Assembly (NCBI RefSeq): GCF_016862075.1
Contig: NZ_BOMG01000057.1
Span: forward strand, 124,001-188,000
Origin: Actinoplanes couchii
GTDB lineage: Bacteria; Actinomycetota; Actinomycetes; Mycobacteriales; Micromonosporaceae
Length of the DNA stretch: 64,000 nt
Direction of reading: 5' to 3'
Shown here: positions 37,307-62,095 of the stretch, in pieces
How positions within the stretch are numbered: the stretch's first letter is position 1
Layout of the letters: each line of letters begins with the position of its first letter
Translations under genes and position numbers: made by a program
Notes under the pieces: generated by a model
What the model was told of the DNA's origin: nothing
What the model saw: only the letters and a program-made list of their open reading frames with translations
Database searches by the model: none

Positions 37307-39945
37307 GCGCGCACCGGAACCTGCGGGAGGACGGTCAGGGGCAGGGAGGTGCGGAACTGGCCCGGTGTGGCCGGGACGGCCCGTTCCTTCCACGGATCCT
37401 GGTAGGCCTGGACGGCTTCTTCCACGGCGGCGTCCAGAGCTTGCGCGATACCGTCCGAGTCGTCCACGACGATCTCCCGGATCCGGTCGATGCCGACCCT
37501 CGGGACGAACGTGTAGGTGCGCTCCAGCCAGTTCGCGTTCTCCCGGTAGTACTGCAGGAAGCGCCCGGTCAGCCGGATCACCTCGTCGGCCGTGCCGACC
37601 GTGGTGAGCAGGTCACCCTTGCGGATGTGGGCTCCGGCGGCGCCGCCGACGTAGATCTCCCACCTACCACCGTCGATGGCGACGACACCCAGATCCTTGA
37701 CGTACGCCTCCGCACAGTTGCGCGGGCAACCCGTCACGGCGAGCTTCATCTTGCCGGGACCTTCCAGCCCCTGGTAGCGCTCTTCCAGCGCGATGCCCAG
37801 GGCTGTCGAATCGCCGACGCCGAACCGGCAGTAGTCCGAGCCGACACAGGTCTTCACGGTCCGGAAACTCTTGGCGTACGCGTACCCGGACGGCATGTCC
37901 AGGTCCGCCCACATCGCCGGGAGCTGCTCCTTCGGCACACCGAGCAGGTCGATGCGCTGGCCGCCGGTGAGTTTCACCATCGGCACGCCGTACTTGTCGG
38001 CCACGTCGGCGATCCGGCGGAGCTGATCCGGGGTGGTGACGCCGCCTTTCATCTGCGGGACCACCGAGAACGTGCCGTCGCGCTGGATGTTGGCGTGCAC
38101 CCGGTCGTTGATGAAACGGGCGTCACGCTCGTCGACGTACTCGTCGGCCCACATCATCTTCAGCAGCGACGCCAGGCCCATCTTGCTCTTCGCGTCGTGC
38201 TCGCCACCGGGCACCAGCTTGTCGAAAACCGACGAGACACTCTTCAGTTCGTACCGGCGGATGACGGCCATCAGTTCGGGTTTCGGCATCGGGACGCCCG
38301 GCACGTACCAGGACGCCGCCGGATCCTCCTCGGCCTCGCCGCCGGCCGCCCACTCGACGATCCGCTGCACCAGCGGCTTGCAGGTCCCGCAACCCTTACC
38401 GGCCCGGGTCCTGTCCATCACGCCGCTGACCGTCCGGCAGCCGCCGTCGACGACGCCGCAGATCGCACCCTTGCTGACGCCGTTGCAGTTGCAGACCTGG
38501 GCGTCGTCGGGCATCTCCCCGGGCGTGACCTCGGCTTTTGCGCCGCCGAGATCAAAAAGCAGCTCCGCGCGTACGTCCGGAAGAGGTTCTCCCCGGTCGA
38601 AAGCCTGGATCAGGCCCGCCGCCTTGCTGTTGTCGCCGACCAGCGTGGCACCGACCAGCGCCCCGTCGCGGATGATGATCTGCTTGTAGAGGCCCTTCTT
38701 CGGCTCGCTGTAGACGATCACCTCGTCGTCGTCGGTCTCCGGCTCCTTCAGGCCCATCGCTGCCACGTCGATGCCGGCTACTTTCAGCTTCGTGTGCAGT
38801 TTCGAACCGCGGTAGGCGGCGTCCGGGTCGCTGCCGGTGATGTGGTCGGCCAGCACCTTCGCCTGCTCCCACAGGGGCGCGACCAGGCCGTACATCTCGC
38901 CGCGGTGCTGGGCGCACTCGCCGACCACGTAGATGTCGTCCTCGCCGATCGCGCGCATCTGGTCGTCGACGACGATGCCGCGCTCGACGGTGAGGCCGCT
39001 GTCCGCGGCGACCCGGGTGTTCGGCCGGATGCCGGCGGCGACCACGATCACGTCGGCGTCGATCACGGTTCCGTCGGCGAGTTTCACGCCGGTGACGCGG
39101 TCCTTGCCGAGGATCTCGGTGGTCATCGCGTTCAGGACCACCTTGATGCCGAGGCGGCTCTCCACACTGTCCTTCAGCATGGTGCCGGCCCGCTCGTCCA
39201 GCTGGACGTTCATCAGGTGGCCCATGGCGTGCAGAAGCGTCACTTCGCTGACGTGATTCTGCAGGCCGCGGGCGGCTTCCAGACCGAGGAGCCCACCGCC
39301 GATGACCACGGCACGCTCGTGATCGCGGGCGTACCGGATCATCCCGCGCGTGTCGTCGAGCGTCCGGAACGCGAAGACCCCCTGGTGGTAGCCCCGCTTC
39401 GGATTGTTGATGTTCTTGATCGGCGGAGTCCACGAGCTGGACCCGGTGGCGATGATCAGCTTGTCGTACGGGGTGGCGGTGCCGTCCGCCGCGTAGACGA
39501 GTTTCGCGGTGCGGTCGATCCGCTCGATCCGGGTGCCGGAGTGCAGGGTGATCCCGTTGTCGGCGTACCAGCCGAGGTCGTTGAGAAAGATCCCGGCCTC
39601 GTCCTCCACCCCCGCGAGCAGGTTGGAGAGCATGATCCGGTTGTAGTTCCCATAGGGTTCGTCCCCGAACATCGTGACGACGAACCCACCGTCCCCACCA
39701 CCCTCGCCACTCCGGCGCGCCTCCCGCTCCGCACTGCGACCTTCGCCCGGTTCCCGGCCCTCACCGCGAACCTCGTTCCGGTTCGGATTCCGGCCCTCAC
39801 CACCAACCTCGTTCCCATCCGGGATCCGGCCCTCGCCACCAACCTCGTTCCGGTTCTCTTTTCGGTTCTTGCTCCGGGCGAGGATCTCCTCAACCGTGCG
39901 GGCCCCGGCCATGCCGTTGCCGATAACCACCAGGCGTTGCGTCAT
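37303..39945 (-). CDS. nirB: NAD(P)H nitrite reductase large subunit with a 63-residue repeat insertion
   Basis: The 880-residue protein reduces nitrite to ammonium using NAD(P)H, FAD, [2Fe-2S], [4Fe-4S] and siroheme. The FAD motif is VVIGNGMAGARTVEEIL (6-22), and GDEPYGNYNRIMLSNLLAG follows only at about 94-112. A BFD-like iron-sulfur region lies near 483-525 (CNCNGVSKGAICG, GKGCGTCKPL). The siroheme ligands are TCVGSDYC and TGCPRNC (about 698-740). Residues 25-87 are an added low-complexity segment built of NEVGGEGR-type 12-residue repeats, between the first helix and second strand of the FAD fold. All cofactor residues are kept, so it may still be active. Confidence 0.95.
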   Translation of the reverse strand: MTQRLVVIGNGMAGARTVEEILARSKNRKENRNEVGGEGRIPDGNEVGGEGRNPNRNEVRGEGREPGEGRSAEREARRSGEGGGDGGFVVTMFGDEPYGNYNRIMLSNLLAGVEDEAGIFLNDLGWYADNGITLHSGTRIERIDRTAKLVYAADGTATPYDKLIIATGSSSWTPPIKNINNPKRGYHQGVFAFRTLDDTRGMIRYARDHERAVVIGGGLLGLEAARGLQNHVSEVTLLHAMGHLMNVQLDERAGTMLKDSVESRLGIKVVLNAMTTEILGKDRVTGVKLADGTVIDADVIVVAAGIRPNTRVAADSGLTVERGIVVDDQMRAIGEDDIYVVGECAQHRGEMYGLVAPLWEQAKVLADHITGSDPDAAYRGSKLHTKLKVAGIDVAAMGLKEPETDDDEVIVYSEPKKGLYKQIIIRDGALVGATLVGDNSKAAGLIQAFDRGEPLPDVRAELLFDLGGAKAEVTPGEMPDDAQVCNCNGVSKGAICGVVDGGCRTVSGVMDRTRAGKGCGTCKPLVQRIVEWAAGGEAEEDPAASWYVPGVPMPKPELMAVIRRYELKSVSSVFDKLVPGGEHDAKSKMGLASLLKMMWADEYVDERDARFINDRVHANIQRDGTFSVVPQMKGGVTTPDQLRRIADVADKYGVPMVKLTGGQRIDLLGVPKEQLPAMWADLDMPSGYAYAKSFRTVKTCVGSDYCRFGVGDSTALGIALEERYQGLEGPGKMKLAVTGCPRNCAEAYVKDLGVVAIDGGRWEIYVGGAAGAHIRKGDLLTTVGTADEVIRLTGRFLQYYRENANWLERTYTFVPRVGIDRIREIVVDDSDGIAQALDAAVEEAVQAYQDPWKERAVPATPGQFRTSLPLTVLPQVPVRA
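39685..39873 (-). repeat. 36-bp in-frame tandem repeat inside nirB
   Basis: The anchor AACCTCGTTC recurs at 39769, 39805 and 39841, exactly 36 bases apart, and degenerate flanks extend the block. It encodes the NEVGGEGRNPNR-like 12-residue units at the N-terminus of NirB. Confidence 0.85.
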
Positions 39946-40388
39946 CAGATCTCCAGCAGTCCGGGCGTCTGGTCACTGCTGATGCTTCAGCGCCGCCGTT
40001 AACCCCCGAGACGCCTACCGGTGACACTGCTGTTCAGAAATCCCTACAACCAGCCACAACCCGTTGTGAGAAGCCGCCCCCACCAGGCCCCACCACACAT
40101 CTCCACCGCCGCCCGCCTCCCCACGTCCTTGTCGCCGTTTCCTCGCGAAGGCGGTGCCGCTTTCCCAGCCCGAACCGCTTTCCCCGCCCAACCGCTATCC
40201 CCGCCCGAACCGCTTTCCCCGCCCGAACCGCTATCCCTGCCGGACCGCGAACACGCCACCCTCCCGCCCGAACCGCAATCCCCCGCAGACCGCGAACACG
40301 CCACCCTCCCGCCCGAACCGCGATCCCTCGTGGACCGCGAACATGCGCTTTCCCTCACGGACCGCGCCTTTCCGTGGCGGGCCGGGGA
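39946..40388. other. Gap upstream of nirB, mostly tandem repeats
   Basis: The first 75 bases before nirB (39946-40020) should hold its promoter. The rest is taken up by an 18-bp array and a 45-bp array. Open frames rich in Pro/Arg/Asn cross the arrays on both strands, but they lack family signatures and I do not call them genes. Confidence 0.6.
40168..40380. repeat. 18-bp x4 and 45-bp x2.6 tandem arrays
   Basis: GCCCGAACCGCTTTCCCC-type units run from 40168 to 40238 (four copies, one with a single-base deletion). From 40243 a 45-bp unit that starts GACCGCGAAC recurs at 40288 and 40333. The two arrays share the GCCCGAACCGC core, so the longer unit contains the shorter one. Confidence 0.85.
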
Positions 40389-41075: not shown

Positions 41076-41123
41076 AGACCTTCTCCTTGAGTTTCAGCAC
41101 TCCCCCACCCGCCCGGCATCCAC

Positions 41124-41345
41124 GTCGCGGAGTGTGCTCGGCACGCTCTGTTCAGCGCACTCCATCCGGCGCACCCCGTTCAGCACGCTCCACTCGGTGC
41201 GCTCCGCCCGGTGTGCTCCATTCGGCGCAACCCCCGATGCGCTCCACCCGATGCGCTTCACCCGGCGCGCTCCATCCGGTGGCACACCGTTCAGTGCATT
41301 CCTTCCGGCGAACCCGGTTCAGTTCCCCTCCGGCCCTGAGCGGCG
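41124..41345. repeat. Degenerate 13-15-bp tandem array
   Basis: About fourteen imperfect head-to-tail copies follow the pattern YCGGYGCGCTCCAY (for example CGGTGCGCTCCG, CGATGCGCTCCACC, CGGCGCGCTCCATC). Unlike the other arrays its period drifts between 13 and 15 bases. Confidence 0.65.
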
Positions 41346-41594
41346 ATCCGGTGGCTGACGCCATGGTGGTGGCCAGGACGCTCAGGCCGCTCATCGAGTC
41401 GACGTTGTGGGCCATCAGTCAGGGCACTCCATCTGGTGGCACGCCGCTCAGTGCGTTCCGTTCGGTGCGGGGAGTCGATTTCCTACGAGACAGGAGCGGC
41501 CCGGCATGTCATCAGGCTCGCGAACTTCGGTACCGCGTTCCAGGCCCGGCATGTGCATCGGGCACCTGGCAGGGCCGGCCGCGTCGCCGGTCCT

Positions 41595-41654
41595 GTTGAC
41601 TTGACTTGTGTTGATTTGACTCGTGTTGACTTGACTCGTGTTGACCTGACTTGG
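41595..41654. repeat. Four exact-period 15-bp repeats, GTTGACTTGACTYGT
   Basis: Units at 41595, 41610, 41625 and 41640 each start GTTGA and differ at one to three positions. The array ends one base before the nnaR stop codon. Such AT-balanced iteron-like units stand out in this GC-rich sequence. Confidence 0.9.
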
Positions 41655-41655
41655 G

Positions 41656-42756: not shown

Positions 42757-42885
42757 CCGGTCCCCATCCTGAGCCGCCTGTCCGGTGCAAGAGTCCTAAG
42801 GCCTGATTTCGGGACCGGCAAAGCAATGTTTCCGAGAGAATAACGGCTGCTCACATAGCCACCGTCGAGCACTGTGACCTGTCGA

Positions 42886-43080: not shown

Positions 43081-43498
43081 CGCTCACTCTCTCTCGTCGT
43101 ACTCCCCCGCCGTGATGATCTTCAGCGCGGAATGTCGCGACAATCTCGCACAAGGTGAGGGGCAGGACGAACGGCCGATGGTCCGGTTCCGCGCTCCGGA
43201 AGGACACCGCAACCTGACCGAAACCGTTCAGCACCCGGGGTTCGGTCCTCTTGCCGGCGGCCTTTCATGGCGCACAGCCGTGCTCGTGCCGGGAAAGCGG
43301 CGTCTCATCCGGTTTTCCGGCGTCTCATGCGGTTACCGGCGACGGCCCTGGTCCGGTCTGTCCGGCGGCTGCTTTGACCCGGCTTTCCAGCGCCTGCTTT
43401 GGTTCGGGTTCCGGCGGCGACTCTGGATCGGGTTCCGGCGGCGACTCTGGATCGGCATTCCGGTTACGGTGGTTCTCGGGTGGCCGGATACTCGAATC
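43081..43498. other. Gap upstream of the DUF4253 gene, with short repeats
   Basis: This 418-base gap has no convincing gene. It includes two 20-bp copies of a CGGCGTCTCAT-type unit near 43301-43340 and two 24-bp units at 43405-43452. The DUF4253 promoter should lie between 43453 and 43490. Confidence 0.5.
43405..43452. repeat. 24-bp direct repeat, two exact copies
   Basis: CGGGTTCCGGCGGCGACTCT plus GGAT is present twice in direct contact (43405-43428 and 43429-43452), and a partial third copy follows. Confidence 0.85.
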
Positions 43499-44524
43499 AT
43501 GGCCGCTGACCTGGATGCCGTCCGGAGGGCCCTGCGGGCGACGATGCTCGCCGACCTGCCGATCATGCCGGTTTTCGGTGATTCTCTGCTGATCAGCGGG
43601 GTGGATCCGGCGGAGATGCTGCCGGCCTGGCGGACGGCTCGGGCGGTGATGGAGTCGACCGGCCGGCGCCCGGTTTTCGTCGACGGCGACGCGCCATTTC
43701 TCGACGAGATCCTGCAGGATTCGGACTCCGAGGACCCTCCGTTCGATCCCTCCTCCGATTCTTCCGTCGCCCCCTCCCGCGAGGTCGGCTCCTCCCGCGA
43801 AGTCGCCCCGTCCCGCGAAGTCGGCCCGGCCCGCGAAGTCGGCCTCTCCCGCGAAACGGGCGAGTGGAAAGGTCCCGGCAACCTGACTGCGATGGATCAG
43901 GTGGCGCGCTCGATCGATCCGTGGCAGGCGTTGCATCATTCCTGGCGGGACGAGCCGCTCGACGACGACACGCTTCGGTCGCAGCTGGCCGGTTTCGGAC
44001 ACGCGCCTTGGGCTGAGGGCACTGGTTCGAGAGACGCGTACCCCGGCTTCGAAGTCGGCGAGGTGCGGCGGCGTGTCTCCGAACCAACATTACGGACCGT
44101 GAACCGGTACGTGTTCGATCGGGTCCGGGACGATCCCGCGTTACTGGCTCAGGTCCCGCCGTACAGCGATCGGCTCACCGGGCTGCACCAGTGGTATCAG
44201 CCGGAGCGGGTGGAACTGCTGCTGCCACCCACCACGGAGCCGCATCTGCTCGCCGGATGGGTCAGCTTCCACGGCACGCTCGGCGCGGAGAGTGTGCTGG
44301 CCGGGGCACTGTTGCAGTGGCATGACCGGTGGCAGGCCGAACTGGTGGCCGGCTGGGAGACGATGCTCCAACTCGTCGTCGGCCGACGGCCGGAGGAGCC
44401 CGACGACGCCTTCGAGGTGGCGTACCAGATAGCGCTCCTGGCCAGTCACCTGGAGATGACCGTGTGGGAGATCGCCCTCGCGGTCACCCGGGGTGACGAG
44501 TGGTTCCTGCACAACCGGCCGTGA
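43499..44524 (+). CDS. DUF4253 protein with in-frame repeat linker
   Basis: This 341-residue protein starts at ATG 43499. The N-terminal part (LDAVRRALRATMLADLPIMPVFGDSLLISG) and the C-terminal DUF4253 region (ESVLAGALLQWHDRWQAELVAGWETMLQLVVGRRPEEPDDAFEVAYQIALLA) flank a disordered linker of SREVGS/SREVAP hexapeptides, about residues 93-121. DUF4253 proteins are cytosolic and of unknown function, and some are linked to polymorphic-toxin immunity. It converges with the AurF-like gene, 17 bases apart. Confidence 0.8.
   Translation: MAADLDAVRRALRATMLADLPIMPVFGDSLLISGVDPAEMLPAWRTARAVMESTGRRPVFVDGDAPFLDEILQDSDSEDPPFDPSSDSSVAPSREVGSSREVAPSREVGPAREVGLSRETGEWKGPGNLTAMDQVARSIDPWQALHHSWRDEPLDDDTLRSQLAGFGHAPWAEGTGSRDAYPGFEVGEVRRRVSEPTLRTVNRYVFDRVRDDPALLAQVPPYSDRLTGLHQWYQPERVELLLPPTTEPHLLAGWVSFHGTLGAESVLAGALLQWHDRWQAELVAGWETMLQLVVGRRPEEPDDAFEVAYQIALLASHLEMTVWEIALAVTRGDEWFLHNRP
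43775..43861. repeat. 18-bp in-frame repeat in the DUF4253 gene
   Basis: Units of TCCCGCGAAGTCGGCCCG start at 43775, 43793, 43811, 43829 and 43847. They encode five SREVGP-like hexapeptides. Confidence 0.9.
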
Positions 44525-44541
44525 GTCAGCCCTCGTAGTGG

Positions 44542-45432: not shown

Positions 45433-45472
45433 CCGGTCCTCCCGGAAATGCTCGACGTCGCCGGTCCTTGAC

Positions 45473-45503: not shown

Positions 45504-46703
45504 ATGAGTTCGGTCACTCCACCCGTCAAGCCCGTCCGTCCCTGCGACGGCCGCAAGGCCACCACTCGCGCCGGAGATGAGGGCAAGACCGCTGTTCCCA
45601 CCAACAGCGAGCGTGAGACCGTTGTTACCGCCAGCGGCGGGCGTGAGACCGCTGTTCGCGCCAGCGGCGACCGCGAGACCGCTGTTCCCGCCGACAGCGA
45701 GCGCCAGACCACTGTTCCCACCAGCAGCAAGCGCGAGACAGCTGTTACCGCCAGCGGCGACCGCGAGACCGGCACTGGGACCAACTCCGGGACCGGTCAA
45801 TTCGTTGACGGGCGTGAGACCGCCGCTCGTCCCCGGGCCGCTCGCTCCGGTGACGGGCGCCGAGTCGCTGCCCGGGCGGCGACCGGCCGCTCTGGGGACG
45901 GGCGTCGTGGGCGGTGGGACGGGCATCGGGAGCAGCGGCGGGGCGAGTTGACGGCGGCGGCCGTCGCGGCGATCCGGCAGCACGGGCCGGACGTCGGGAT
46001 GGAGACGATCGCCGCGCATGCCGGCGTCAGCAAGCCGGTGCTGTACCGCTACTTCGCCGACAAGTCCGAGTTGTGGCTGGCCGTCGGGCAGGTGGCCGGG
46101 CAGATGGTGCTCGACGACATGATCCCGGCGGTCGCCGCGGTTCGCGAGGACCGGGCCGTGGTCGCCGCGGCCATCGACATCTACCTGACCCGCATCGAGT
46201 CGGATCTTCATCTGTACCGGTTCGTGGTCCATCAACCCGACGTCACCCGGGGCCGGGACGTGGTCGCCGACGTGATGGACACGGTGGCCAGCGGGCTGGC
46301 CCGGATCTTCGGGGACCGGTTGCGGGCACGCGGGCTGGACTCGGGGGCAGCGCTGCCGTGGGCCTACGGCGTGGTCGGTTACGTCCAGGCGGTCGGCGAC
46401 TGGTGGCTGCGGCAGCAGCAGCCGATCAGCCGGGACGCCCTCACCGACTACCTGACGACGTTCCTGTGGAGCGGCATCGCCGGCATGCGCCAGGCCGCGG
46501 ACATCCCCGGCGGTCTGGCAGCGGCACGAGACACCCCCGGCGGTCCGGCCGCGGCACGAGACACCCCCGGCGGTCCGGCTGCGGCACGAGACGTCCCCGG
46601 CAGTCTGGCAGCGATGCGAGACATCTCCAGCGGCACGATGGGCGTGCCGGCCACCCTCGGCGACCTCCCGAGAAGTGAGAGTGCGGGGGTGCGGGACATA
46701 TGA
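45504..46703 (+). CDS. TetR-family regulator with repeat extensions at both ends
   Basis: This 399-residue protein is about twice the usual TetR length. The DNA-binding domain is at about 137-185 (RRGELTAAAVAAIRQHGPDVG, then HAGVSKPVLYRYFADKSELW), and the ligand-binding helices run to about 340. Residues 29-92 are 10-residue repeats (TAVPTNSERE-like), followed by an Arg/Gly-rich stretch. Residues 332-377 are a second 10-residue repeat (DTPGGPAAAR-like). The core looks intact, so the tails are probably disordered additions. The stop overlaps the next start. It is the likely repressor of the cluster. Confidence 0.88.
   Translation: MSSVTPPVKPVRPCDGRKATTRAGDEGKTAVPTNSERETVVTASGGRETAVRASGDRETAVPADSERQTTVPTSSKRETAVTASGDRETGTGTNSGTGQFVDGRETAARPRAARSGDGRRVAARAATGRSGDGRRGRWDGHREQRRGELTAAAVAAIRQHGPDVGMETIAAHAGVSKPVLYRYFADKSELWLAVGQVAGQMVLDDMIPAVAAVREDRAVVAAAIDIYLTRIESDLHLYRFVVHQPDVTRGRDVVADVMDTVASGLARIFGDRLRARGLDSGAALPWAYGVVGYVQAVGDWWLRQQQPISRDALTDYLTTFLWSGIAGMRQAADIPGGLAAARDTPGGPAAARDTPGGPAAARDVPGSLAAMRDISSGTMGVPATLGDLPRSESAGVRDI
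45588..45767. repeat. 30-bp x6 in-frame repeat, N-terminal part of tetR
   Basis: Six units with exact 30-base spacing start ACCGCTGTTCCC-like at 45588, 45618, 45648, 45678, 45708 and 45738. They differ mainly at third positions and at a few replacement sites. Confidence 0.92.
46501..46620. repeat. 30-bp x4 in-frame repeat, C-terminal part of tetR
   Basis: Four units with exact 30-base spacing start ACACCCCCGGCGG-like at 46501, 46531, 46561 and 46591, and a partial fifth follows. The middle two differ by one base. Confidence 0.92.
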
Positions 46704-50594: not shown

Positions 50595-53500
50595 TCAGCT
50601 TGCTCTTTTGATTTTGATCTCGCTGTGGGCCACATTGGCTGGTAGGAGGGCTCGGGACTGGCCGGGGCGCAACGTGCGGGCGGTCGACGGGTCCACCACC
50701 ACTGCCGTCAACTGGAAATTTTCGTCACCGCCGGTCTCCAATCCCGCGGGGCCGCATGTGAAACTCCAGCCGCCGGGGCAGGCGCCCACCACCCGGTACG
50801 GGGTGCCGGCTCCGTGTCTGCGCAGGAGCCAGACCTGGTGGTGGGGTGGGAGGTCGGCGCTGCCGCTGACCCTGGCGTTCGCTGCCAGCGTATCGCCGTC
50901 GCGGGGGTGACTGAAACCGATCGATGCGGTTCGGCCCACCGTTCCGGTGGCGGTCAGGTCGGTGGTGGTGACACCTGACGGAACTGGTGTTGACGTCTTG
51001 ACGCCGGACCCCGACGGTGCAGTCAACCCTGTCGGCGGTGGGGACGCCTCGCCCAACTGGTCGTCGACCGTTGCCGATCGATGTCTTCCGGTGGGGGCGG
51101 GCGGCTCGTAGGGGGCCAGTCCGGAGTAGACGCCGGAGGCATCGGCGGGGGCCGGGGTGTGGGCTGCGGCCAGCGGCGGCGGCCGGAACTGAGGGCCGTC
51201 CGGCGCCATCCCGAACGCGGACGCGGCTACGGCCCCCACCCCCACGGTCATCAATCCCACGGTGAGGACCGGACGTCTGCGTGCTTCCCTGCCCACGGCA
51301 CCGACGGTCTGTCCCACGACTGCCGTTCCCCGTCCCAGAAGTTGGTCCAGCGCTGCTTTGGCCTGGGCAAATGCGGCCGCTCCGTCGGCTGATAGTCCGT
51401 AGGCGACGTGCTCCAGGACATCTGTCGCGGGACCTTGCAGATCGCCGGTCTTCAACCGCGGAGCCGTCGGTACGTGTCCTGGCTCCGTGTTCGCCATGAA
51501 CGCCGCGGCGGCTCTCGACACGTCGTCGGTGCGCTCCAGTACGGCTGTCAACGCGCTGCCGGTGCGCTCCGGTACGGCAGTCGACGCGCTGCCGGTGCGC
51601 TGCCGTAGGGCCGGTTTCGGTCGTTCACCCACCCGCATCATCACCACGGTCGAGGGCGGAAGTATGCCTGTCCGGTCATGCATCACCACGGTGTCGCCGG
51701 GCGATCCGGTGCTGATCCCGTTGTGGACGGTATGGACGTTGTGGATCCCGCCGCCGTCGGCACGGATGGCTGCACGGCCACCGGTCATCACAGCGGACGC
51801 CCGGACCGCGGCGGACCTTCCGGAACCGGACCCTGTCTCACCGATACCCGTCAGCACAGCCGTGACCGCGGCCGACACCCGAGCCGCATCAACTCGCGGC
51901 CCCGTGGCAGGCATCAGACCGGCAGTTCCAAAAGATTCACCCACACCTGTCAGTACGGCCGTCACCGCAGCAGAAGCCGGACCAGCATCAACGCCAGCCG
52001 GTGCCCCATAAAGCCCACCGGCTACGGGTGATCCTTCACCGCCCGCCTCATGTTGCGGCTCAGTGTTTCTCGTATGAGACTCGCTGCCCCTCGCATGGGG
52101 CTCAGCACCTCTCACATGGGGCTCGCTGCCCCTCGCATGGGGCTCGCTGCCCCTCACGTGGGGCTCAGCACCTCTCACATGAGGCTCAGTGCCTCCCTCG
52201 TGGGGCTCGGTGCCTCTCGCCTGGGGAGAGGTGTCGCCTGAGGGGGTGACAGCACCCGGCGGCGCCGAATCCCGCCCCGCCGCCGTGACGTAAACCCGGG
52301 AACCCGCATCAACCCGGGAACCCGCATCGTGCTCGGCATCCCTTGCCCCAGCCCGCCCTGGGGAAGCAGCCCGCCAAGCATCACCAACCGGTCGAACAGC
52401 ATCATCTCGATACCCAGCGTCGACCTGCCGCGCCCCGTCAACCCGCGTCAGACCGTCGACATGGCCGACGCCGACCACCGGACCCGCATGATTCACCCCG
52501 CCCGGACCGTCCACCTGGCTGACGTCATCCGCCTCAGCCACACGGCTCACCCAGCCCGCACCGCCCCCCTGAGCTGCATGACTCCCGTGGCTGGCACCGT
52601 TCACCTGGTCAGCACCGTTCAGCTGAGCCACACGACCGGCCCGACCCGCACCGTCCACCTGAACCACAGATCCCACGTGGCTGGCACCGCCCACCTGACC
52701 AACACCATCCAGCTGAACAACACGACCGGCCCAGCCCGCACCATCCACCTGAACCACCGAACCCACGTGGCCGGCACCGCTCACCTGGCCAACACCGCTC
52801 ACCTGAGCCTCGTGGCTGAGCCTGCCGGCGCTACCCACTTGAAACGCCTGACTCATGTGAGTGGTGCCGCCCATCTGGCCGGCACCAGCAGCATGCCGCG
52901 CGTCGCCAGCGAGTAGGACAGCCTCGGCCTGCTGCACGGCATTGGCCTGCTGCATGCCGTTGGCCTGCTGCATGCCGTTGGCCTGCTGCATGCCGTTGGC
53001 CTGCTGCGAGCCGTTGGCCTGCTGCGAGCCGGTGGCCCAGCGAACGGCGCCCGCCTGCACCAATGCGGCGATCTGGCGTGCATCGATTCGGCGCGCATCG
53101 GCGGCTCCGGGCATGACCGCGAGCACGGCAACCGGCATCGTAGCGTCGGTGATCTGCGGAGCGGAGGTAACGATCGAGCCCGCAGCCGAAACCGTCGGCC
53201 CCGCAGCCGACAGGTTCAGGATCGGTTGAATCGCTGTTGATTCAGTCAACGTTGATCCGGGACATGTTGAGCCAGGACAGGTTGATCCGGAACATGTTGA
53301 TCCAGTCAATGATGATTCCGATGTGGTCAACTCGATCAATGTTGACGGCGCGGTGGTCAACATTGCGGACGTCAATGTTGACGAGTCCTGTGTTGACGTT
53401 GGCTGGGTAGACGGCGGAAGCGTTGATCGAGGTTGTGCCGGTGGCGCCTCTGCTGATGAAGCCGATGTGTCCGAAGCCGATGTTGATGAAGACGAAGCTG

Positions 53501-53918
53501 ATGTTGACGTCAATGTTGATGACGTCAAGGGCAGAGAAGCCGGCGGCGGCATTCCCTGCTTCGCAGTTGTTGGCGGCTGAGCTGCCGTCCGCGCTTCCGC
53601 GTCGTCGGGAATCCGCTCCCGCGCTTCCGGACCATCAGGAACCTGCTCCCGCGCTGCCAGACCGTCAGAAACCTGCGTCCACGCTTCCGGACCATCAGGA
53701 ACCTGCTCCCGCGCTGCCAGACCGTCAGAAACCTGCGTCCACGCTTCCGAACTATCAGGAACCTGCTCCCGCGCTTCCGGACCGCCGGGAACCTGTGTCC
53801 ACGCTTCCGTGCTGTTGGGAACCTGGGTCCGCGCTTCCGCGCCGTTAGGAGTTGCTGTGGGGCTGGAGGAGTTCTCGGGCGTGCCTTCGGATGCGGATTC
53901 CCGGGAGGTGACAACCAT
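50595..53918 (-). CDS. Large repeat-built single-pass membrane protein, 1107 residues
   Basis: Start ATG 53918 follows GGAAGG. Residues 28-112 are 10-residue EAWTQVSDGL/EAREQVPDGP repeats. 128-240 are Ser/Thr-rich. 297-330 are QQANGM hexapeptides. 351-500 are Gly/Val/Gln repeats with a 30-residue higher unit. 565-620 are EPHVRGA heptapeptides, and 769-797 are RTGSALTAVLE-type units. A helical region (about 820-880) leads to one membrane span (PVLTVGLMTVGVGAVAASAFG, 883-903), a Pro-rich stalk and a C-terminal Ig-like domain with two Cys (about 995-1085). N-in/C-out topology is likely. Only the last 300 residues look conserved. I know no named family for the whole protein. Confidence 0.75.
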   Translation of the reverse strand: MVVTSRESASEGTPENSSSPTATPNGAEARTQVPNSTEAWTQVPGGPEAREQVPDSSEAWTQVSDGLAAREQVPDGPEAWTQVSDGLAAREQVPDGPEARERIPDDAEARTAAQPPTTAKQGMPPPASLPLTSSTLTSTSASSSSTSASDTSASSAEAPPAQPRSTLPPSTQPTSTQDSSTLTSAMLTTAPSTLIELTTSESSLTGSTCSGSTCPGSTCPGSTLTESTAIQPILNLSAAGPTVSAAGSIVTSAPQITDATMPVAVLAVMPGAADARRIDARQIAALVQAGAVRWATGSQQANGSQQANGMQQANGMQQANGMQQANAVQQAEAVLLAGDARHAAGAGQMGGTTHMSQAFQVGSAGRLSHEAQVSGVGQVSGAGHVGSVVQVDGAGWAGRVVQLDGVGQVGGASHVGSVVQVDGAGRAGRVAQLNGADQVNGASHGSHAAQGGGAGWVSRVAEADDVSQVDGPGGVNHAGPVVGVGHVDGLTRVDGARQVDAGYRDDAVRPVGDAWRAASPGRAGARDAEHDAGSRVDAGSRVYVTAAGRDSAPPGAVTPSGDTSPQARGTEPHEGGTEPHVRGAEPHVRGSEPHARGSEPHVRGAEPHARGSESHTRNTEPQHEAGGEGSPVAGGLYGAPAGVDAGPASAAVTAVLTGVGESFGTAGLMPATGPRVDAARVSAAVTAVLTGIGETGSGSGRSAAVRASAVMTGGRAAIRADGGGIHNVHTVHNGISTGSPGDTVVMHDRTGILPPSTVVMMRVGERPKPALRQRTGSASTAVPERTGSALTAVLERTDDVSRAAAAFMANTEPGHVPTAPRLKTGDLQGPATDVLEHVAYGLSADGAAAFAQAKAALDQLLGRGTAVVGQTVGAVGREARRRPVLTVGLMTVGVGAVAASAFGMAPDGPQFRPPPLAAAHTPAPADASGVYSGLAPYEPPAPTGRHRSATVDDQLGEASPPPTGLTAPSGSGVKTSTPVPSGVTTTDLTATGTVGRTASIGFSHPRDGDTLAANARVSGSADLPPHHQVWLLRRHGAGTPYRVVGACPGGWSFTCGPAGLETGGDENFQLTAVVVDPSTARTLRPGQSRALLPANVAHSEIKIKRAS
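51530..51605. repeat. 30-bp in-frame repeat in the 1107-residue protein gene
   Basis: GTGCGCTCCGGTACGGCAGT-type units recur at 30-base spacing, about two and a half copies. They encode the RTGSALTAVLE decapeptides. Confidence 0.75.
52059..52226. repeat. 21-bp in-frame array in the 1107-residue protein gene
   Basis: About eight 21-base units (CTCGCTGCCCCTCGCATGGG and variants) encode the GSEPHVR/GAEPHAR heptapeptides. Confidence 0.88.
52419..52868. repeat. Compound repeat block with 90-bp higher-order unit
   Basis: Short QV-G/HVG units group into a 30-residue unit (HVGSVVQVDGAGWAGRVVQL followed by DGVGQVGGAS) that is present twice almost unchanged, with decayed copies on both sides. Confidence 0.8.
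52929..53030. repeat. 18-bp array encoding QQANGM
   Basis: GCCTGCTGCATGCCGTTG is repeated head to tail, with about six copies including end variants. The three central ones are identical. Confidence 0.92.
53199..53537. repeat. GTTGA-rich block
   Basis: This block holds more than fifteen GTTGA(C/T) words and several reverse-orientation TCAAT/TCAAC words in 340 bases. On the coding (minus) strand it encodes Ser/Thr runs with TCA and ACA/ACG codons that are rare elsewhere in the window. Base use is much more AT-rich than in the flanks. Confidence 0.75.
53583..53837. repeat. 30-bp array with 60-bp higher-order unit
   Basis: The 60 bases at 53641-53700 and 53701-53760 are identical apart from two substitutions. 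Each consists of two 30-base units, and diverged units flank them on both sides. They encode the EAWTQVSDGL/EAREQVPDGP decapeptides. Confidence 0.93.
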
Positions 53919-54016
53919 CGAACGCCTTCCGCATGATCGGAGGCCGCCGGTGAACCGCCGGCCGGAGCGCCGTACCCAACAGCGCCATCCGACCCGATAA
54001 CCCGACTACCCACGAT

Positions 54017-54436: not shown

Positions 54437-54492
54437 GTCGTTGGACCCGCCGAAGCCTGACCAAAATCCGTCACCGCCCCCTTACGGACCGG

Positions 54493-54906
54493 TCAGCGGC
54501 TGTCCCGCAACTCCCTGAGGATTCGGGACAGGTGTGCGCGGTCGGTCGGGTTGAGGCCGGCGAACAGCCGTTCGCCCTCGCTGGCGCGAGCCTCCCGGAT
54601 GGCCCTTGCCGTCTCGGCACCGCGCTCGGTCAGCACCACCAGGGTGGCCCGGCGGTCGGACGGATCCGGACGCCGCTCGACCAGCCCCCGGTTCTGCAGG
54701 TCGTCGATCACCTCGGTGGCCGAACGCGGCACGATCCGCAGATGCTCGGCCAGGGCGCTGAGACGCATCTCACCGTGTTTGGAGAGCACCATGACCGCGC
54801 GGGACTGCGACGGCGAGACATGCCAGGGCTCGAGCGTGATCCTGGTGTGCTCACGCAGCTTCCGGGACACCGCCCAGAACGTCTCCAGCAGCCCGTCCTC
54901 CTCCAC
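54493..54906 (-). CDS. MarR-family transcriptional regulator
   Basis: This 137-residue winged-helix dimer has a GTG start at 54906. The recognition region is MRLSALAEHLRIVPRSATEVIDDLQNRGLVERRPDPSDRRATLVVLTERG, which covers the helix-turn-helix and the wing with the DRR motif. It diverges from an ABC exporter gene, and a long palindrome lies between them. It therefore probably represses that exporter and responds to a small molecule. Confidence 0.93.
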   Translation of the reverse strand: MEEDGLLETFWAVSRKLREHTRITLEPWHVSPSQSRAVMVLSKHGEMRLSALAEHLRIVPRSATEVIDDLQNRGLVERRPDPSDRRATLVVLTERGAETARAIREARASEGERLFAGLNPTDRAHLSRILRELRDSR

Positions 54907-54940
54907 GGGAACAAACTACCAGCGATTACCGTTGCTCCCT

Positions 54941-54963
54941 CATGTTGAGGTAACCTCAGCATG
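54941..54963. promoter_or_regulatory. MarR operator candidate
   Basis: The core TGAGGTAACCTCA is a perfect 13-bp palindrome. After one mismatched pair the arms continue as CATG on both sides, which gives 23 bp with a single mismatch. It lies 35 bases before the MarR start and 53 before the exporter start. Confidence 0.8.
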
Positions 54964-55015
54964 CCGCCCGGGCCACCACACGACCCGGATACCCCCGTAC
55001 AAGAAAGGCACGCTC

Positions 55016-56797: not shown

Positions 56798-56803
56798 TCA
56801 TCG

Positions 56804-57253
56804 ATGTCCGGCCGGGACCTATCGTCGGCGCACGTGAGCTTTCATTACGAGGTCGTCATCAGCTGCTTCCTGGAAGCACACACTCCGGACACCGTTCTGG
56901 ACACACTTCACTGGTTGCTGGGCATCGCCGACGAGCGCCCGGCGCATCTGAGCGACGACACGTTCCCCTACCAGACGTTCGACCCGGACCCGGACAGTCG
57001 ACTGCCGGGCGGTGACGTGGCCACGCTGCGGCAGCAGAAGCGGGGCTTCACCGCCTACGGCGACGTCGTCGAGTGGGGCCTGCACGTCCGAGTCCTGGTC
57101 CACGACGACGGCATGGGCGAGATCTACTCGTTCCTGGAGCTCATCGAGCCGCATGTCTCCGGCGACGGTTACGCCGGCCACATCCGCAACGAGGACGACC
57201 CCACCCAGATGGACATCCTCATCCTGGGCAGCGGTTCCTTCCAGATCAGCTGA
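56804..57253 (+). CDS. Hypothetical acidic protein after the ABC exporter
   Basis: This 149-residue protein starts six bases after the exporter stop (ATG 56804, or GTG 56834 at VSFHYEVVISCFLEAHTP). It is rich in Asp/Glu and aromatic residues, with DTFPYQTFDPDPDSRLPGGDV and YGDVVEWGLHVRVLVHDDG. It has no membrane segment. Its position suggests co-expression with the exporter. I do not recognise the family. Confidence 0.65.
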   Translation: MSGRDLSSAHVSFHYEVVISCFLEAHTPDTVLDTLHWLLGIADERPAHLSDDTFPYQTFDPDPDSRLPGGDVATLRQQKRGFTAYGDVVEWGLHVRVLVHDDGMGEIYSFLELIEPHVSGDGYAGHIRNEDDPTQMDILILGSGSFQIS

Positions 57254-57335
57254 CGGGACCACCCCACTCCACGCGAACACGAACGCCTGCCCGAATGCGA
57301 AACCCACGTGAAGTGGCCCCCGCACGAAGGTGGAA

Positions 57336-57363
57336 CCCCGCCCGGTGGAGCGGGCGGGGCGTT
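57336..57363. terminator. Bidirectional terminator
   Basis: CCCCGCCCG (57336-57344) pairs with CGGGCGGGG (57351-57359) around GTGGAG, followed by CGTTT. It lies between the convergent hypothetical and nitroreductase genes. Confidence 0.75.
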
Positions 57364-57380
57364 TGACGGGCGTACCGCAA

Positions 57381-58016
57381 TCAGCTGGTTTTGAACTTTT
57401 CGAAGTGGACTACCTCTTCGAGGGGGCGGCGTTTGGGTTCGGACCAGCGGCCTCGGCTGGGGTGACCGATCGGGATCAGGGCCATCGTCAGTGCGTCCCC
57501 CGGGAGGCCCAGCAGGGTGCGGACTTCGGCCTCGTGGCCGATGTGCAAGGTGGTCAAGGTTGCGCCCAGGCCGTGTGCGCGGGCGGCCAGAATCAGGTGC
57601 TGGACGGCGCCGTAGATCGACGAACCCAGCCTTGGATTGGTGGATTTCGCGGCGCCCAGCAGGACCGGGAAGATCCAGACCGGTGCCTCTTCCAGGTGAT
57701 TCGCCAAGTGGTCGGCGGCCAGGAAGCTCTTCTTGCTCATCGGGCCGCCCTCCGGCGCGCCCAGGATCTGCTCGCGGCGGGAACCGTAGTGGCGCTCCCA
57801 GCCCTCCCGGTACCAGTCCGCGATCTGCTTCTTCGTCTCCGGGTCGCGGACCACGATCCATGTCCAGAATTGACCATTGCCGGCGGATGGGCCCCGGATC
57901 GCGGCGTCCAGGATGGCGCGGATCACGTCGTCGCCGACCGGCTCGGTGGACAGGTAGCGGCGGGCCGGCGTCGAGTGCAACGCCTCCAGCAGAGGTAGTG
58001 CGTTCGGGTCCGTCAT
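57381..58016 (-). CDS. Nitroreductase-family protein
   Basis: This 211-residue FMN enzyme has ALHSTPARRYLSTEPVGDDVIRAILDAAIRGPSAGNGQFWTWIVV at the start (the S/T-x-R-x-Y/F FMN-phosphate site) and GAVQHLILAARAHGLGATLTT later, both typical of NfsA/NfnB-like dimers. Such enzymes reduce nitro groups, quinones or activated alkenes with NAD(P)H. The substrate is unknown. It ends at a shared terminator and starts 25 bases from the citrate synthase-like stop. Confidence 0.9.
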   Translation of the reverse strand: MTDPNALPLLEALHSTPARRYLSTEPVGDDVIRAILDAAIRGPSAGNGQFWTWIVVRDPETKKQIADWYREGWERHYGSRREQILGAPEGGPMSKKSFLAADHLANHLEEAPVWIFPVLLGAAKSTNPRLGSSIYGAVQHLILAARAHGLGATLTTLHIGHEAEVRTLLGLPGDALTMALIPIGHPSRGRWSEPKRRPLEEVVHFEKFKTS

Positions 58017-58041
58017 GCCGGGATCCTACTGGCCGGTAGCC

Positions 58042-59757
58042 TCAGCCGGGATGGTGTCCCGCGTACATTCCGGACGGCCGGAAACGCAGTGGGCGATCGC
58101 CGTACTCCTCCATCGCGTGCGCCAGCCAGCCCGCCGTCCGGGCCACCGCGAAGATCACCTCGCCGGCCTCGGCGGGCATGTCGTATTCCAGGGACAGTGC
58201 GGCGAGCGCCAGATCGATGTTGGCGGCGGTGCCCGATCTGGTACGCATCGTCCGGTCCAGCCGCAGAGCATCCTGCTTCGGCGCACCGTCGCCGAGCAGA
58301 TCGAACAGGGCGGTCGCGCGCGGATCCCCGTCCGGATAGAGCGGATGCCCGAACCCGGGGACCGGAACACCGGTGCGCAAGCGATCCGAAAGAGTCACCG
58401 CCGGTCCCTTGGCACCGGAGGATTCGATCAGCAGCTGGTACGCGAGACCACTCGCCGCCCCGTGCAACGGACCGTCGAGTGCGGCGAGACCGGCGCTGAC
58501 CACCGCGTACGGGTGTGCACGTGTTGACGCGGCAACCCTTGCCGCAAGTGTTGACGCGGCGATGTCGTGATCGGCGAGCAGGACCATCGCGCCGTTGAGA
58601 GCGCGCAGACCCTCCTCCGTCGGCGGGACACGGGTCAGCCGGTGCCAGAGTGCCTCGGCCAGCGGGATCGGCTTGACCGGGACACCGGTGCGGGCCGGCA
58701 GCCCGTGCACCATCGTGGCGAGCAGATCCCGTCCGGTAGCGATCACCGCGGCGGGCGACGTGTCGAACCGCAGCGGATCAGCAGCCGACGCGGCGGCGAC
58801 GATCACCCGCAGGCGGTCGGTGAGCCGGGCGGTGGCCGGCAGCTTCGCCGTGACCTCGACAACCAGATCCCACAACTTCCCGTTGACCGGAATCAGCAGG
58901 TCAGCCCCCGGCCGACCGGCCCATTCCCGGCTCGGGCCGACCGCTCCTGCCAGGCCGGCCGCTTCAGCCAGGGTGACCGTTCCCGCCGGGTCAGCCGCTT
59001 CAACCGGGGTAATCGTTGCAGCCAGGGTGACTGCCCCTGCCTGGCTGACCGTTCCTGCCGGGCCGACCGCTTCAACCAGGGTGACCGCTCCTGCCGGGCC
59101 AGCCGTTCTTACCGGGCCAGCCGCCGCAGCCGTCTCGCCCTGCGGCTCGGCTTCTCTTGATCCGGGCTCTTCGCCCGGGCGGCCGGTCTCCTCACTCGGG
59201 CGGCCGGACTCGTCCGGCTGGGCTTCCCTGCTCGGGCCTCTCGTTGCGTCCAGCCGGATGGTTTGATCGGGGTTGCCCCACTGGGCCGGCCGGTTTGCCG
59301 TTGTCACGCCGGTGGTCTCTCCCGGCTCGCCTGACTCGGCTGGTCTGTTCGAGCTGCCCGGTGTGTCCGCCCTGGCCAGCCGGACTGTGTCGGCCGGCAT
59401 GACTGTCCCGGTCGGCCGGCCTGTGTTGACTGGGGTGGGGGTCTGGTCTCCGGACCACAGGAGGGCCGCGACGGACTCGTACGAGAAGTCTCGGGCCAGG
59501 ATTGTGGCGTCCTGGCCTCGGAAGAACAGGCGGCCGTCTCTGATCAGGGTGATGCCGGTCTGGATGCCGGGGGTGGTGGGTCGTTTGCGGGTGGCCACGA
59601 AAGCGTCGACGTCGGATCTGGTGAACAGGCTGTTCTTGCCGTCGGCGTTGCGCCGGCTGGTGAGGAGACCGCGGCTGACATACGCATACACCGTCGCCTG
59701 CTTGACGCCCAGCAGGCTAGCGACTTCCTCGGTGGTCAGCAGCGGTTCAGAGGCCAT
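58042..59757 (-). CDS. Citrate synthase-like protein with N-terminal helix-turn-helix and repeat insertion
   Basis: The 571-residue protein begins with a MerR/excisionase-like DNA-binding fold ([27 protein letters not shown], about 6-52). A citrate synthase fold starts near residue 66 ([23 protein letters not shown]). It is interrupted at about 105-285 by a disordered insertion and resumes at [18 protein letters not shown]. Catalytic landmarks are present: [25 protein letters not shown] and [17 protein letters not shown]. Actinobacteria often pair such a protein with a second citrate synthase, here divergent. It may be a regulator, an enzyme or both. Confidence 0.88.
58930..59124. repeat. 18-bp-based in-frame repeat in the citrate synthase-like gene
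   Basis: Six-residue units of the [18 protein letters not shown] type, in sets of one to three, make up residues about 212-276. Their DNA units are multiples of 18 bases and clearly related (GCCAGGGTGACCGTTCCTGC-like). Confidence 0.75.
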
Positions 59758-59824
59758 GTTGCCATCCTCTCATATTGACTGGATCAACATTGACATCAAC
59801 ATGTTGATTATCCACATTGAGGTC

Positions 59825-60988
59825 ATGTTGACAGTCAATCCTGGGCTTGCCGGTGTTGTTGCCTTCGACACCGAGATCGCCGAACCCGATCGGAACGGCG
59901 GGGCGCTGCGGTACCGCGGCGTCGACATCAACTCCCTGGCCGGGCGGGCCTCGTTCGGTGACGTCTGGGGGCTGCTCGTCGATGGTGACTTCCGTCGGGG
60001 GCTTCCGCCGGCCGGGGCGCTTCCGCCTGTGGACAACACCGGGGACATCCGGGCCGATGTGCAGGCCGCGGTGTCGCTGCTGGCCCCGCGATGGTCCATG
60101 CGTCAACTGATCGACATCTCCGACGAGCAGGCCCGCGACGACCTGGCCGCGACGTCGGCGGCGGTCCTGGACTACGTCGCCCGGGCCGCTCGCCTCTTCT
60201 CCGCGGCGGGAGGTCCGGCTGCGGGAGGGCGGGTGGTGGAGCGGGTTTCCGGGGTGGAGGGGGTTCCTGTGCCGGAGCGGCTGGTGGCTGCGGGGCGGAC
60301 TGCTACCGAGCGGTTCATGATTGCCTGGCGAGGGGAACCTGATCCTCGGCATGTGGCGGCCATCGACCGGTACTGGGTGTGTGCCGCTGAGCACGGCATG
60401 AACGCCTCCACCTTCACCGCCCGGGTTGTCGCCAGTACCGGGGCCGATGCTCCCGCCTGCGTGTCGGCTGCGATCGCGGCGCTGTCGGGGCCGCTGCACG
60501 GTGGGGCTCCGGCCCGGGCGCTCGGCATGATCGAAGAGGTCGAGCGGGGTGTGGACGCCCGGCGATACGTTCGGCGGCTGCTTGACGACGGGCAGCGGCT
60601 CATGGGGTTCGGGCATGCGATCTACCGGGCGGAGGATCCTCGGGCGCGGATCCTGCGGGAGACCGCCCGGGAACTGGCGGCTCCGCGGTACGAGGTGGCG
60701 CGGGCACTGGAACTGGCTGCCCTGGCCGAACTCCGGGAACGCAAACCGGACCGGGTTCTGGAGACGAACGTCGAGTTCTGGGCCGCGGTGGTGCTGGACT
60801 TCGCGGGCGTACCGGCGGAAATGTTTGCTTCGATGTTCACCTGTGCCCGGACCGCTGGATGGAGTGCCCACATCCTGGAACAGAAGCGCCTGGGAAAGAT
60901 CATCCGGCCGTCCGCCGACTACGTGGGGCCCGGCGAACGTGACGCCGCCGAGGTTCCCGGCTGGCCCCCGGTCACCGCTCCCCTGTGA
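59825..60988 (+). CDS. Citrate synthase family protein (second, divergent copy)
   Basis: This 387-residue type II-like citrate synthase condenses an acyl-CoA with oxaloacetate or a related keto acid. Visible segments are [51 protein letters not shown] (catalytic His), [23 protein letters not shown] (second His) and [21 protein letters not shown] with the downstream Arg. The start is taken as ATG 59825. ATG 59801 is in frame but has no ribosome site. Citrate or 2-methylcitrate synthase activity cannot be separated by eye. Confidence 0.9.
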
Positions 60989-61010
60989 TGACGGCCGACC
61001 CGAAGGCGGG

Positions 61011-61157
61011 CGGCCGCCCGTGAGAACCGGACGGCCGCCCGTAAGGAACAGACTGTCGCCCGTGAGAACCGGACGGCCGCCCGTAAGGAACGGACTGTCG
61101 ACCATGAGAAACGGTCGGCCGCCCGTGAAGACCGGGCGGCCGACCAGGAACAACGGG
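61011..61157. repeat. Seven exact-period 21-bp repeats between convergent genes
   Basis: CGGCCGCCCGTGAGAACCGG-type units occur at 61011, 61032, 61053, 61074, 61095, 61116 and 61137. Odd and even copies differ in a way that suggests a 42-bp doubled unit. The array ends two bases before the stop of the minus-strand gene and has no stop codon in one frame of either strand. Confidence 0.93.
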
Positions 61158-61159
61158 TG

Positions 61160-62095
61160 TCAGGGCAGCTCGGACGGCCGGTAGGAGGTGGTCTTGCCGC
61201 CGGCGTGGACCGTCACGGTCAAGGTGTCCACCTCGCCGCCCTCGGGGCCCGGCCACCAGGCCGCCCACCAGCCGGATTTCACGCTGGCCTGCAGGAGCGC
61301 GCCGCTGTCCAGCCGGATCTCCACCGCGTCGACCCCCGGACCGGCCAGGCCGACGATGTTGGACCACTGGTCGTCACCGTCACCCAGGGAGCTCATCGTC
61401 TCCAGGTTGACGGTACCGGCGGCGGGAGCCGGCAACCCCCCGGGGCCGGCCAGGCCCATCGATGCGGCGCTCTCCTCGGCGACCATCAGGCATTCGACGA
61501 CGCCCTCCGCCTTGCTCATGATCAGCAGGGTGGCCTCGCCCCGTTGTTCGGCCAGCAGCACGTCGGCGGCCTGCGGGCTGGTCTTTCCGCCGACGTCGCC
61601 GGACGCGCACACCTTCGCCTGCGGCAGCACCTGGTCGCCGGTTCGGGAGGTGGGCATCGCAGTCCACGATGCGACGGCCTTCTCGGTGGTGCCGGGGACC
61701 AGGGCGGGCACCGCTACGGCGGCCACCGCGCCGGCGGCCATGGCTGCGGCGCCGGCGACGATCCAGCGCCGTGCGGGCGGCCGGGAGGCGGAGGTGGAGG
61801 TGGAGGCGGTGCCGTCGATCACCCGCTCGACGAAGGCCTCGGAGCGGGCCCATTCCCTGCGGCTCGGCTCGCGGCCCCGAGCGGGATCAAGAACGGCGAG
61901 CATGCCCAGATCGTGATCACGGGCGGCAGACAGGCCCCGGCCGGTGTCGCGAGCGGCGGACAGGCCCGGGTCATTGTCGCGGCCGGCAAACGACGCCCGG
62001 TCGGTGCCGCGGCCGGCGAGCGGGCCCGGGTAGGTGTCGCGCAGCGGAGATCCGGAGGCCGTGGGGTCGGTGGAGTCGTTCATGCGTTCGTCCAT
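61160..62095 (-). CDS. Membrane partner of the ECF sigma factor, with repeats
   Basis: This 311-residue protein starts at ATG 62095, eight bases after AAGGAG, and overlaps the sigma gene by 16 bases. The N-terminal 66 residues include four 10-residue LSAARDTGRG-like repeats. A membrane span follows (WIVAGAAAMAAGAVAAVAVPALV, about 110-132), then an outer domain with two Cys. There is no HxxxCxxC zinc anti-sigma motif, so it is not a standard ZAS anti-sigma factor, but its position suggests that it controls the sigma factor. Confidence 0.75.
   Translation of the reverse strand: MDERMNDSTDPTASGSPLRDTYPGPLAGRGTDRASFAGRDNDPGLSAARDTGRGLSAARDHDLGMLAVLDPARGREPSRREWARSEAFVERVIDGTASTSTSASRPPARRWIVAGAAAMAAGAVAAVAVPALVPGTTEKAVASWTAMPTSRTGDQVLPQAKVCASGDVGGKTSPQAADVLLAEQRGEATLLIMSKAEGVVECLMVAEESAASMGLAGPGGLPAPAAGTVNLETMSSLGDGDDQWSNIVGLAGPGVDAVEIRLDSGALLQASVKSGWWAAWWPGPEGGEVDTLTVTVHAGGKTTSYRPSELP
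61898..62026. repeat. 30-bp in-frame repeat in the sigma-partner gene
   Basis: Four degenerate 30-base units encode PLAGRGTDRA, SFAGRDNDPG, LSAARDTGRG and LSAARDHDLG in the N-terminal cytoplasmic part. Confidence 0.75.

Follow-up and report, generated by a model that had tools for sequence, protein, structure and literature searches.

The window analysed here is a 64,000-bp stretch of the Actinoplanes couchii genome (contig NZ_BOMG01000057.1, positions 124,001 to 188,000), and it holds a zone in which tandem arrays of short DNA units lie inside conserved genes, in a large open reading frame (ORF) and in the gaps between genes. Arrays were called with Tandem Repeats Finder (TRF), using score cut-offs of at least 50, 60, 80 or 100 as given with each count. 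TRF reports 51 rows of score at least 50 from the window, and in the zone at 39754-62047 it identifies 16 merged arrays of score at least 80, 13 of which score at least 100 (Table 1). Six of the 16 are hosted by conserved genes: nirB, a DUF4253 gene (a Pfam match slightly below the Pfam cut-off), both ends of a tetR gene, a helix-turn-helix (HTH)/citrate-synthase-like gene and the partner of an extracytoplasmic function (ECF) sigma factor gene, a putative label carried over from an earlier, sequence-only reading of the window. Another five lie in a 1107-codon ORF and five in gaps. TRF finds repeats in every gene where the sequence-only reading had placed them. That reading had also seen only one short 12-bp array in the first 39 kb, which is incorrect: TRF gives nine rows of score at least 50 before 39.1 kb, although only one row there (33 bp, 35350-35418, score 117) has a score of at least 100. 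The 1107-codon ORF has no Pfam match at E<=0.001 and was missed altogether by a codon-usage gene-calling script; against the related genome G026, only its residues 643-1107 align (48%). Because it is not called by codon usage and four of its five arrays fall outside the aligned part, the coding status of these arrays is uncertain.

Table 1. Tandem arrays of the zone, with positions in the window.
Feature	Position	Strand	Context	Evidence
36-bp array in nirB	39754..39856	-	after conserved EEILAR (residues 19-24), before strand FVVTMFGDEP	TRF and ortholog alignment
18/45-bp compound array	40157..40343	.	nirB-cbiX gap	TRF
14/26-bp array	41186..41288	.	cbiX-hemD gap	TRF
15-bp array, unit TGTTGACTTGACTCG	41594..41651	.	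cbiX-hemD gap	TRF
24-25-bp array	43353..43463	.	upstream of DUF4253 gene	TRF
18-bp array, repeat SREVG-PS and variants	43766..43855	+	variable loop of DUF4253 gene	TRF; missing from 4/4 aligned relatives
30/90-bp array	45579..45771	+	TetR regulator, between conserved start MSSVTPPVKP and DNA-binding domain	TRF
30-bp array, unit a copy of conserved host AAD[IV]PGGLAA	46500..46613	+	TetR C-terminus	TRF and relatives
Five arrays (33, 21/63, 90, 18, 30/60 bp)	51527..53850	-	1107-codon ORF, coding status uncertain	TRF
18/36/54-bp array	58933..59118	-	linker (~190 aa) of first HTH/citrate-synthase-like protein	TRF and ortholog comparison
21/42/63-bp array	60990..61157	.	between second citrate-synthase-like gene and ECF partner gene	TRF
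30-bp array	61923..62047	-	close to N-terminus of gene adjoining putative ECF sigma factor	TRF

The array units are mutually unrelated. Only 7 of 9180 array pairs are similar at E<=1e-3, three of them being neighbours on one locus and two involving 6-7-bp units, and the earlier view that every array has its own unit and that this is not one mobile repeat is borne out. A single mobile or transposed satellite family, which would place a related unit at several loci, is rejected on the same count. Within the zone, the copies of an array are mostly 60-93% alike. The word GTTGACTTGAC occurs seven times in the own genome, four of them in the zone and within 5 kb of one another (40822, 41595, 41625 and 45247); two of these are in the 15-bp gap array and the others are in cbiX and aurF, at spots where orthologs differ. 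The hexamer GTTGAC is enriched about 3-fold in the zone.

Related genomes are designated by G numbers (G000 being A. couchii itself; G021, G026, G029 and G032 its relatives) and loci by L numbers. The 11.46-Mb A. couchii genome, assembled in 199 contigs, was represented by an enlarged sample of 926 kb, mostly contig starts, with another 204 kb from the contig that contains the window. Outside the zone this sample contains 119 arrays of score at least 80 (about 128 per Mb), 79 in or at genes and 40 noncoding; the 634 kb outside the window contain 65 arrays of score at least 100 (102 per Mb). Markov-3 shuffles of the window (10 x 64 kb) yield 23 arrays of score at least 50 and none of score at least 100. 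With 16 arrays in 22.3 kb, the zone reaches about 5.5 times the sample average. Arrays are clumped (index of dispersion 3.47 over 98 bins of 10 kb), and the zone supplies the fourth densest bin and one that is tied for fifth with L019; L015, L143 and L209 rank higher. Of the other sampled stretches, at least five (among L008, L014, L015, L019, L143 and L209) have a density close to that of the zone. The zone is dense, yet it is one of several and not unique, and the array process is genome-wide and common to the relatives. In one dense stretch (L209:10001-20000, with orthologs L268-L270) the arrays, unlike those of the zone, are recognisable across four species; it includes a 411-bp array of about 100-bp units that looks like an old repeat protein.

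Could the arrays be artefacts of assembly? The genome is fragmented, and two short contigs, L014 and L015, rank among its richest in arrays, a hint that contig breaks tend to fall near arrays. However, mis-assembly does not create copies that differ to the extent seen in the zone, and G026 and G029, both single-contig assemblies, carry the same zone. We consider an artefact extremely improbable.

The arrays inside genes keep the reading frame. For score at least 80, 47 of 48 arrays inside called genes of A. couchii have periods that are multiples of three versus 28 of 48 noncoding ones; in G026, the closest genome searched by NirB identity (93%), the figures are 28/30 and 8/21. Periods of this kind also make up 22/24 (A. 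couchii) and 2/2 (G026) of the arrays in possible 5' extensions, and 9/16 and 2/7 of those overlapping a gene edge. The sequence-only reading, which held that almost all periods are multiples of three, is correct for called genes but not for gaps, where there are 14/26-, 20- and 25-bp rows. The noncoding share in A. couchii is above one third, an excess that doubtful ORFs in the set, such as the 1107-codon one, may explain. Noncoding DNA contains 347 arrays per Mb compared with 97.5 in genes, about 3.6 times more per base. Since the noncoding arrays are denser and much less biased toward multiples of three, the open frames fit a selection filter; survival of frame-keeping arrays would suffice to produce the bias, and a frame-aware process need not be invoked. 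In the 48 genic arrays, order-promoting residues account for 13.7% versus 25.6% in the host proteins.

These densities bear on an alternative in which duplication is even along the chromosome and arrays simply persist in permissive zones where gaps are long and linkers are tolerant. Consistent with it, noncoding DNA is the richer compartment, array density drops with coding fraction (rho -0.29, P 0.004, 98 bins) and the genic arrays occupy low-order sequence. On the other hand, the conserved genes of the zone alone carry 6 arrays versus 1.69 expected (P 0.008, for a zone picked after it had been seen). We treat permissive zones as a serious contender for the full explanation, one that falls a little short of being probable.

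The strongest new point of the analysis is that the zone is inherited between species while its arrays turn over; its basis is three relatives and four zones. G026 is collinear with much of the window, except that the block at about 54.5-61 kb lies in the opposite orientation and that several genes, at about 9-14 kb and at about 32-34 kb, have no syntenic match. The inversion (54493-60988, containing the citrate-synthase-like genes) is seen relative to hemD in G026 and some relatives and not in others. The ortholog of the zone supplies the two densest of 50 bins in G026 and the two densest of 40 bins in G029, and in G021 its four bins have 3, 4, 3 and 2 arrays, where random bins average 0.67 (1.00 in G026 and 1.08 in G029). 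Three other dense stretches of the A. couchii genome, HZ1, HZ2 and HZ4, were traced in the same relatives. HZ1, with 10 own arrays, has 3 in G026, 9 in G029 and 5 in G021, and HZ4, with 8, has 7, 8 and 6. Compared with 112 random bins, the six zone-ortholog bins stand out at P = 1.2e-5 and the nine HZ1, HZ2 and HZ4 ortholog values at P = 3.3e-4 (one-sided rank tests treating bins as independent).

The arrays themselves are rarely shared. Compared at the nucleotide level with the orthologous stretches, none of the zone's own 16 arrays is matched in G026 or G029 and one is matched in G021. For noncoding control segments the matched numbers, out of 60 in each case, are 40 (G026), 16 (G029) and 22 (G021), and for coding control segments they are 58, 53 and 46 in the same order (Fisher P 6.7e-7 for arrays versus noncoding controls in G026). 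In HZ1, 1 of 10 arrays is matched in each relative, with 30, 19 and 2 of 60 noncoding controls; in HZ2, 0, 1 and 0 of 5 arrays are matched. The relatives do not carry the same insertions at the same places, as a comparison of orthologs could have revealed; sites recur, and units differ. That the arrays are instead old inherited repeats whose units have drifted past recognition is suggested by HZ4, where the arrays correspond to arrays at equivalent positions in three relatives. For the zone, the contrast between its unmatched arrays and the matched noncoding controls in G026 largely refutes this explanation, as does NirB (below), and we regard it as improbable.

NirB orthologs have EEILAR, about three residues (NGD or similar) and then FTVTMFGDEPYGNYNR. 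At this loop, in the flavin adenine dinucleotide (FAD) domain, the A. couchii protein has about 63 residues, with a 36-bp unit, and that of G026 has about 20 residues, with a 12-bp unit (DQTR). In 28 of the 29 orthologs compared, the loop has no repeat and is at most two residues longer (two orthologs), which argues both against an old repeat and against permissive zones alone. NirB matches were found in 64 of 66 other genomes of the genus (two had no match), with the best match starting at query residue 82-88, past the insertion; in G009 and G088 the match comes in two pieces, the first starting at 86 and 85. A relative of solved structure, 1xhc, begins to align at residue 88, which agrees with an insertion probably placed just before the second strand. 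A structure prediction for the protein (mean predicted local distance difference test score, pLDDT, 47.4) is too poor to use beyond the observation that residues 28-86 are below 50.

The linker of the citrate-synthase-like protein behaves in the same way. It measures 13-15 residues in five relatives and 19-32 residues, with no array, at L028, L040 and L041; where arrays are present it measures about 190 residues in A. couchii, 69 in G026 (24-bp unit) and 30 in G032 (12-bp unit), loci with overlapping domain matches (given as 0) being left out of these lengths. A second site of this protein has insertions at L043 and L050. The cbiX-hemD gap carries arrays of score at least 60 in A. couchii, G026 and 5 of 11 other relatives.

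Two arrays, at the TetR end and in G032, have visibly grown from host codons. In 6 of 6 relatives compared, the TetR C-terminus has a single AAD[IV]PGGLAA with a short end after it; the A. couchii protein reads DIPGGLAAAR DTPGGPAAAR DTPGGPAAAR DVPGSLAAMR. Its repeats match the single copy of the relatives, and the unit is therefore the host's own codons. In the citrate-synthase-like gene of G032 (L034, gene 1135-2385), TGG ACC GGC GAA occurs as three consecutive copies, trailed by two degenerate ones, and the equivalent codons are present once at L024, L035 and L050. The L034 array is a nascent one, a tandem repeat of 12 bp of host codons. The nested periods of zone arrays (21/42/63 and 30/60/90) indicate several rounds of amplification. 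Slippage or unequal recombination would fit these array starts as the molecular step.

Our best reading, which we hold to be probable, is that ordinary local duplication and slippage act genome-wide and more actively than usual in this zone, that selection keeps the genic arrays in frame, and that births and losses are concentrated in zones conserved between species. Local duplication, acting on any sequence that happens to be present, would continually give these chromosomes new short tandem arrays, which later rounds of slippage or unequal recombination would extend. Within genes, only arrays that keep the frame and lie in a loop, a linker or a protein end would survive. Births and losses would cluster in the same chromosomal zones across species, so that the zone is rich in arrays in all four species even though the arrays themselves are replaced. 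As the cause of a hot zone we favour weaker local constraint, in the form of longer gaps and looser codon bias, possibly together with a raised duplication rate. In A. couchii, arrays become more frequent as G+C content at third codon positions (GC3) falls, with 0.35 per 10 kb in the highest quintile and 2.77 in the lowest (rho -0.28, P 0.006), and from nirD to the nitroreductase gene 12 of 13 genes have GC3 below the ortholog mean, the TetR core being equal to it. The observation made in the sequence-only reading is confirmed as a whole. Its interpretation, a local process that creates or keeps coding repeats, is partly supported: the zone lies above the genome average and behaves regionally, being array-rich in the three relatives tested, but arrays occur genome-wide, other stretches are about as dense and no special process for coding repeats is needed.

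Several observations weigh against the reading we prefer. HZ2, with 5 own arrays, has 0 in G026, 5 in G029 and 0 in G021, and of these relatives only G029 has it as a hot zone. In HZ4, 6, 5 and 6 of 8 arrays are matched (G026, G029, G021), mostly array to array, and are therefore older repeats. With HZ2 mostly negative and HZ4 holding inherited arrays, inheritance of the zone without its arrays is not universal. The relation of arrays to GC3 is not general either (rho 0.02 in G026, -0.11 in G029 and, weakly, -0.29 with P 0.07 in G021), and the hot zones share no single marking feature. Synonymous divergence between G029 and G021 is not raised in the zone versus its flank (P 0.45, with only 4 flank genes), and HZ4 is slow-evolving, with an identity at fourfold-degenerate sites of 0.816. 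Finally, the repeat differences in nirB and the citrate-synthase-like gene are between species only, and no further isolate of A. couchii was identified.

A rather unlikely alternative to weaker constraint is a raised duplication rate at the DNA level, in a fragile or error-prone stretch kept over several species. It draws on the zone density common to three relatives, on arrays turning over faster than adjacent noncoding DNA, and on an identity to G026 at fourfold-degenerate sites of 0.652 in 16 zone genes versus 0.758 in 19 flank genes (P 1.7e-4). Against this, the higher synonymous divergence is missing in the G029-G021 comparison and in HZ4, and three stretches overlapping by chance in two samples have values of 0.68, 0.69 and 0.74. 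As a general mark of hot zones, raised mutation is unsupported, with no difference in the former case and the reverse in the latter. In none of the three relatives tested does the zone lie at the replication terminus, and no signature in its sequence was detected. In these relatives nirB is 0.28 (G029), 0.30 (G021) and 0.32 (G026) of the chromosome from dnaA, and the terminus was rejected as a cause; over 17 relatives the distance is 0.26-0.48, six being at 0.42-0.48. The dif-like patterns used had no match in the window and six relative stretches, and the GC skew of the samples is uninformative on terminus position. Loss of the repair enzyme NucS was likewise rejected, NucS being present in 10 of 10 genomes searched, with an open frame in the four that were read. 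Dense bins show less local sharing of 13-mers outside arrays, not more (8.9 vs 21.6).

A bolder version, which is doubtful and put forward tentatively, is that these are long-lived birth zones whose location outlasts any array, that new disordered insertions keep entering the same enzymes at the same loops, and that a DNA-level property, not tolerance alone, drives this. With the same gene and the same loop acquiring independent repeats in sister species, the zone offers a natural system in which to measure where bacterial genomes give rise to repeats and how well proteins cope with newly added disordered segments. Unequal duplication rates as the source of the hot zones would make them an instance, in bacteria, of regional repeat instability; tolerance as their source would instead turn them into a map of the insertion-accepting parts of core enzymes.

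Array density also differs between genera. Within about 10 kb on each side of hemD, a locus that takes in part of the hot zone, arrays of score at least 100 reach a density of 138 per Mb over 12 loci from close Actinoplanes, compared with 36.5 per Mb over 12 loci from Paractinoplanes and 30 per Mb over 24 from Micromonospora. The value for all 16 Actinoplanes-titled loci is 132 per Mb, the four initially left out carrying 0, 7, 0 and 1 arrays. An approximate SATFIND-like count of our own gives 29.2 arrays per Mb for A. couchii, 12.5 for G026, 33.3 for G029 and 30.6 for G021, and 4.3 for the Micromonospora loci. Three of the four genomes lie above 23 per Mb, the top value for bacteria in the covered part of the table of a bacterial satellite survey (PMC6749651), the two implementations not being identical. 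Beyond the closest Actinoplanes group, the hemD locus is array-dense in L093 (Symbioplanes lichenis, 11 arrays of score at least 100) and L079 (Actinoplanes sp. RD1, 7). A literature search, with most subscription journals outside its coverage, returned no paper on such arrays in Actinoplanes.

The in-frame intragenic minisatellites, or variable number tandem repeat (VNTR) loci, of bacteria have units of tens of bp, multiples of three when coding, with one unit per locus, and grow by replication errors. The arrays described here are head-to-tail copies of a 10-100-bp unit by TRF, and inside genes their periods are multiples of three almost throughout. In the portion of the satellite survey considered here (PMC6749651), non-coding satellite families spread through the genome are described from Leptospira interrogans and Methanocella conradii; they resemble the present case in having many arrays per genome and differ from it in that our arrays have no common unit. 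Bacterial tandem repeats of constant size and variable sequence, of 20-21 or 52 nt (Subirana and Messeguer 2021, PMC8161180), are, in the part of that paper drawn on, similar in that the unit sequence varies from array to array, but the A. couchii arrays of score at least 80 have no fixed period, ranging from 6 to 147 bp. With the coding tandem repeats of bacteria, as presented in the sections used of Subirana and Messeguer 2019 (PMC6749651), and with VNTR-type minisatellites generally, our arrays share units of tens of bp, periods in multiples of three when coding, a unit unique to each locus and, probably, growth by replication error; unlike them, they lie in enzymes and regulators, are dense, and form a zone that is common to several species while the units differ.

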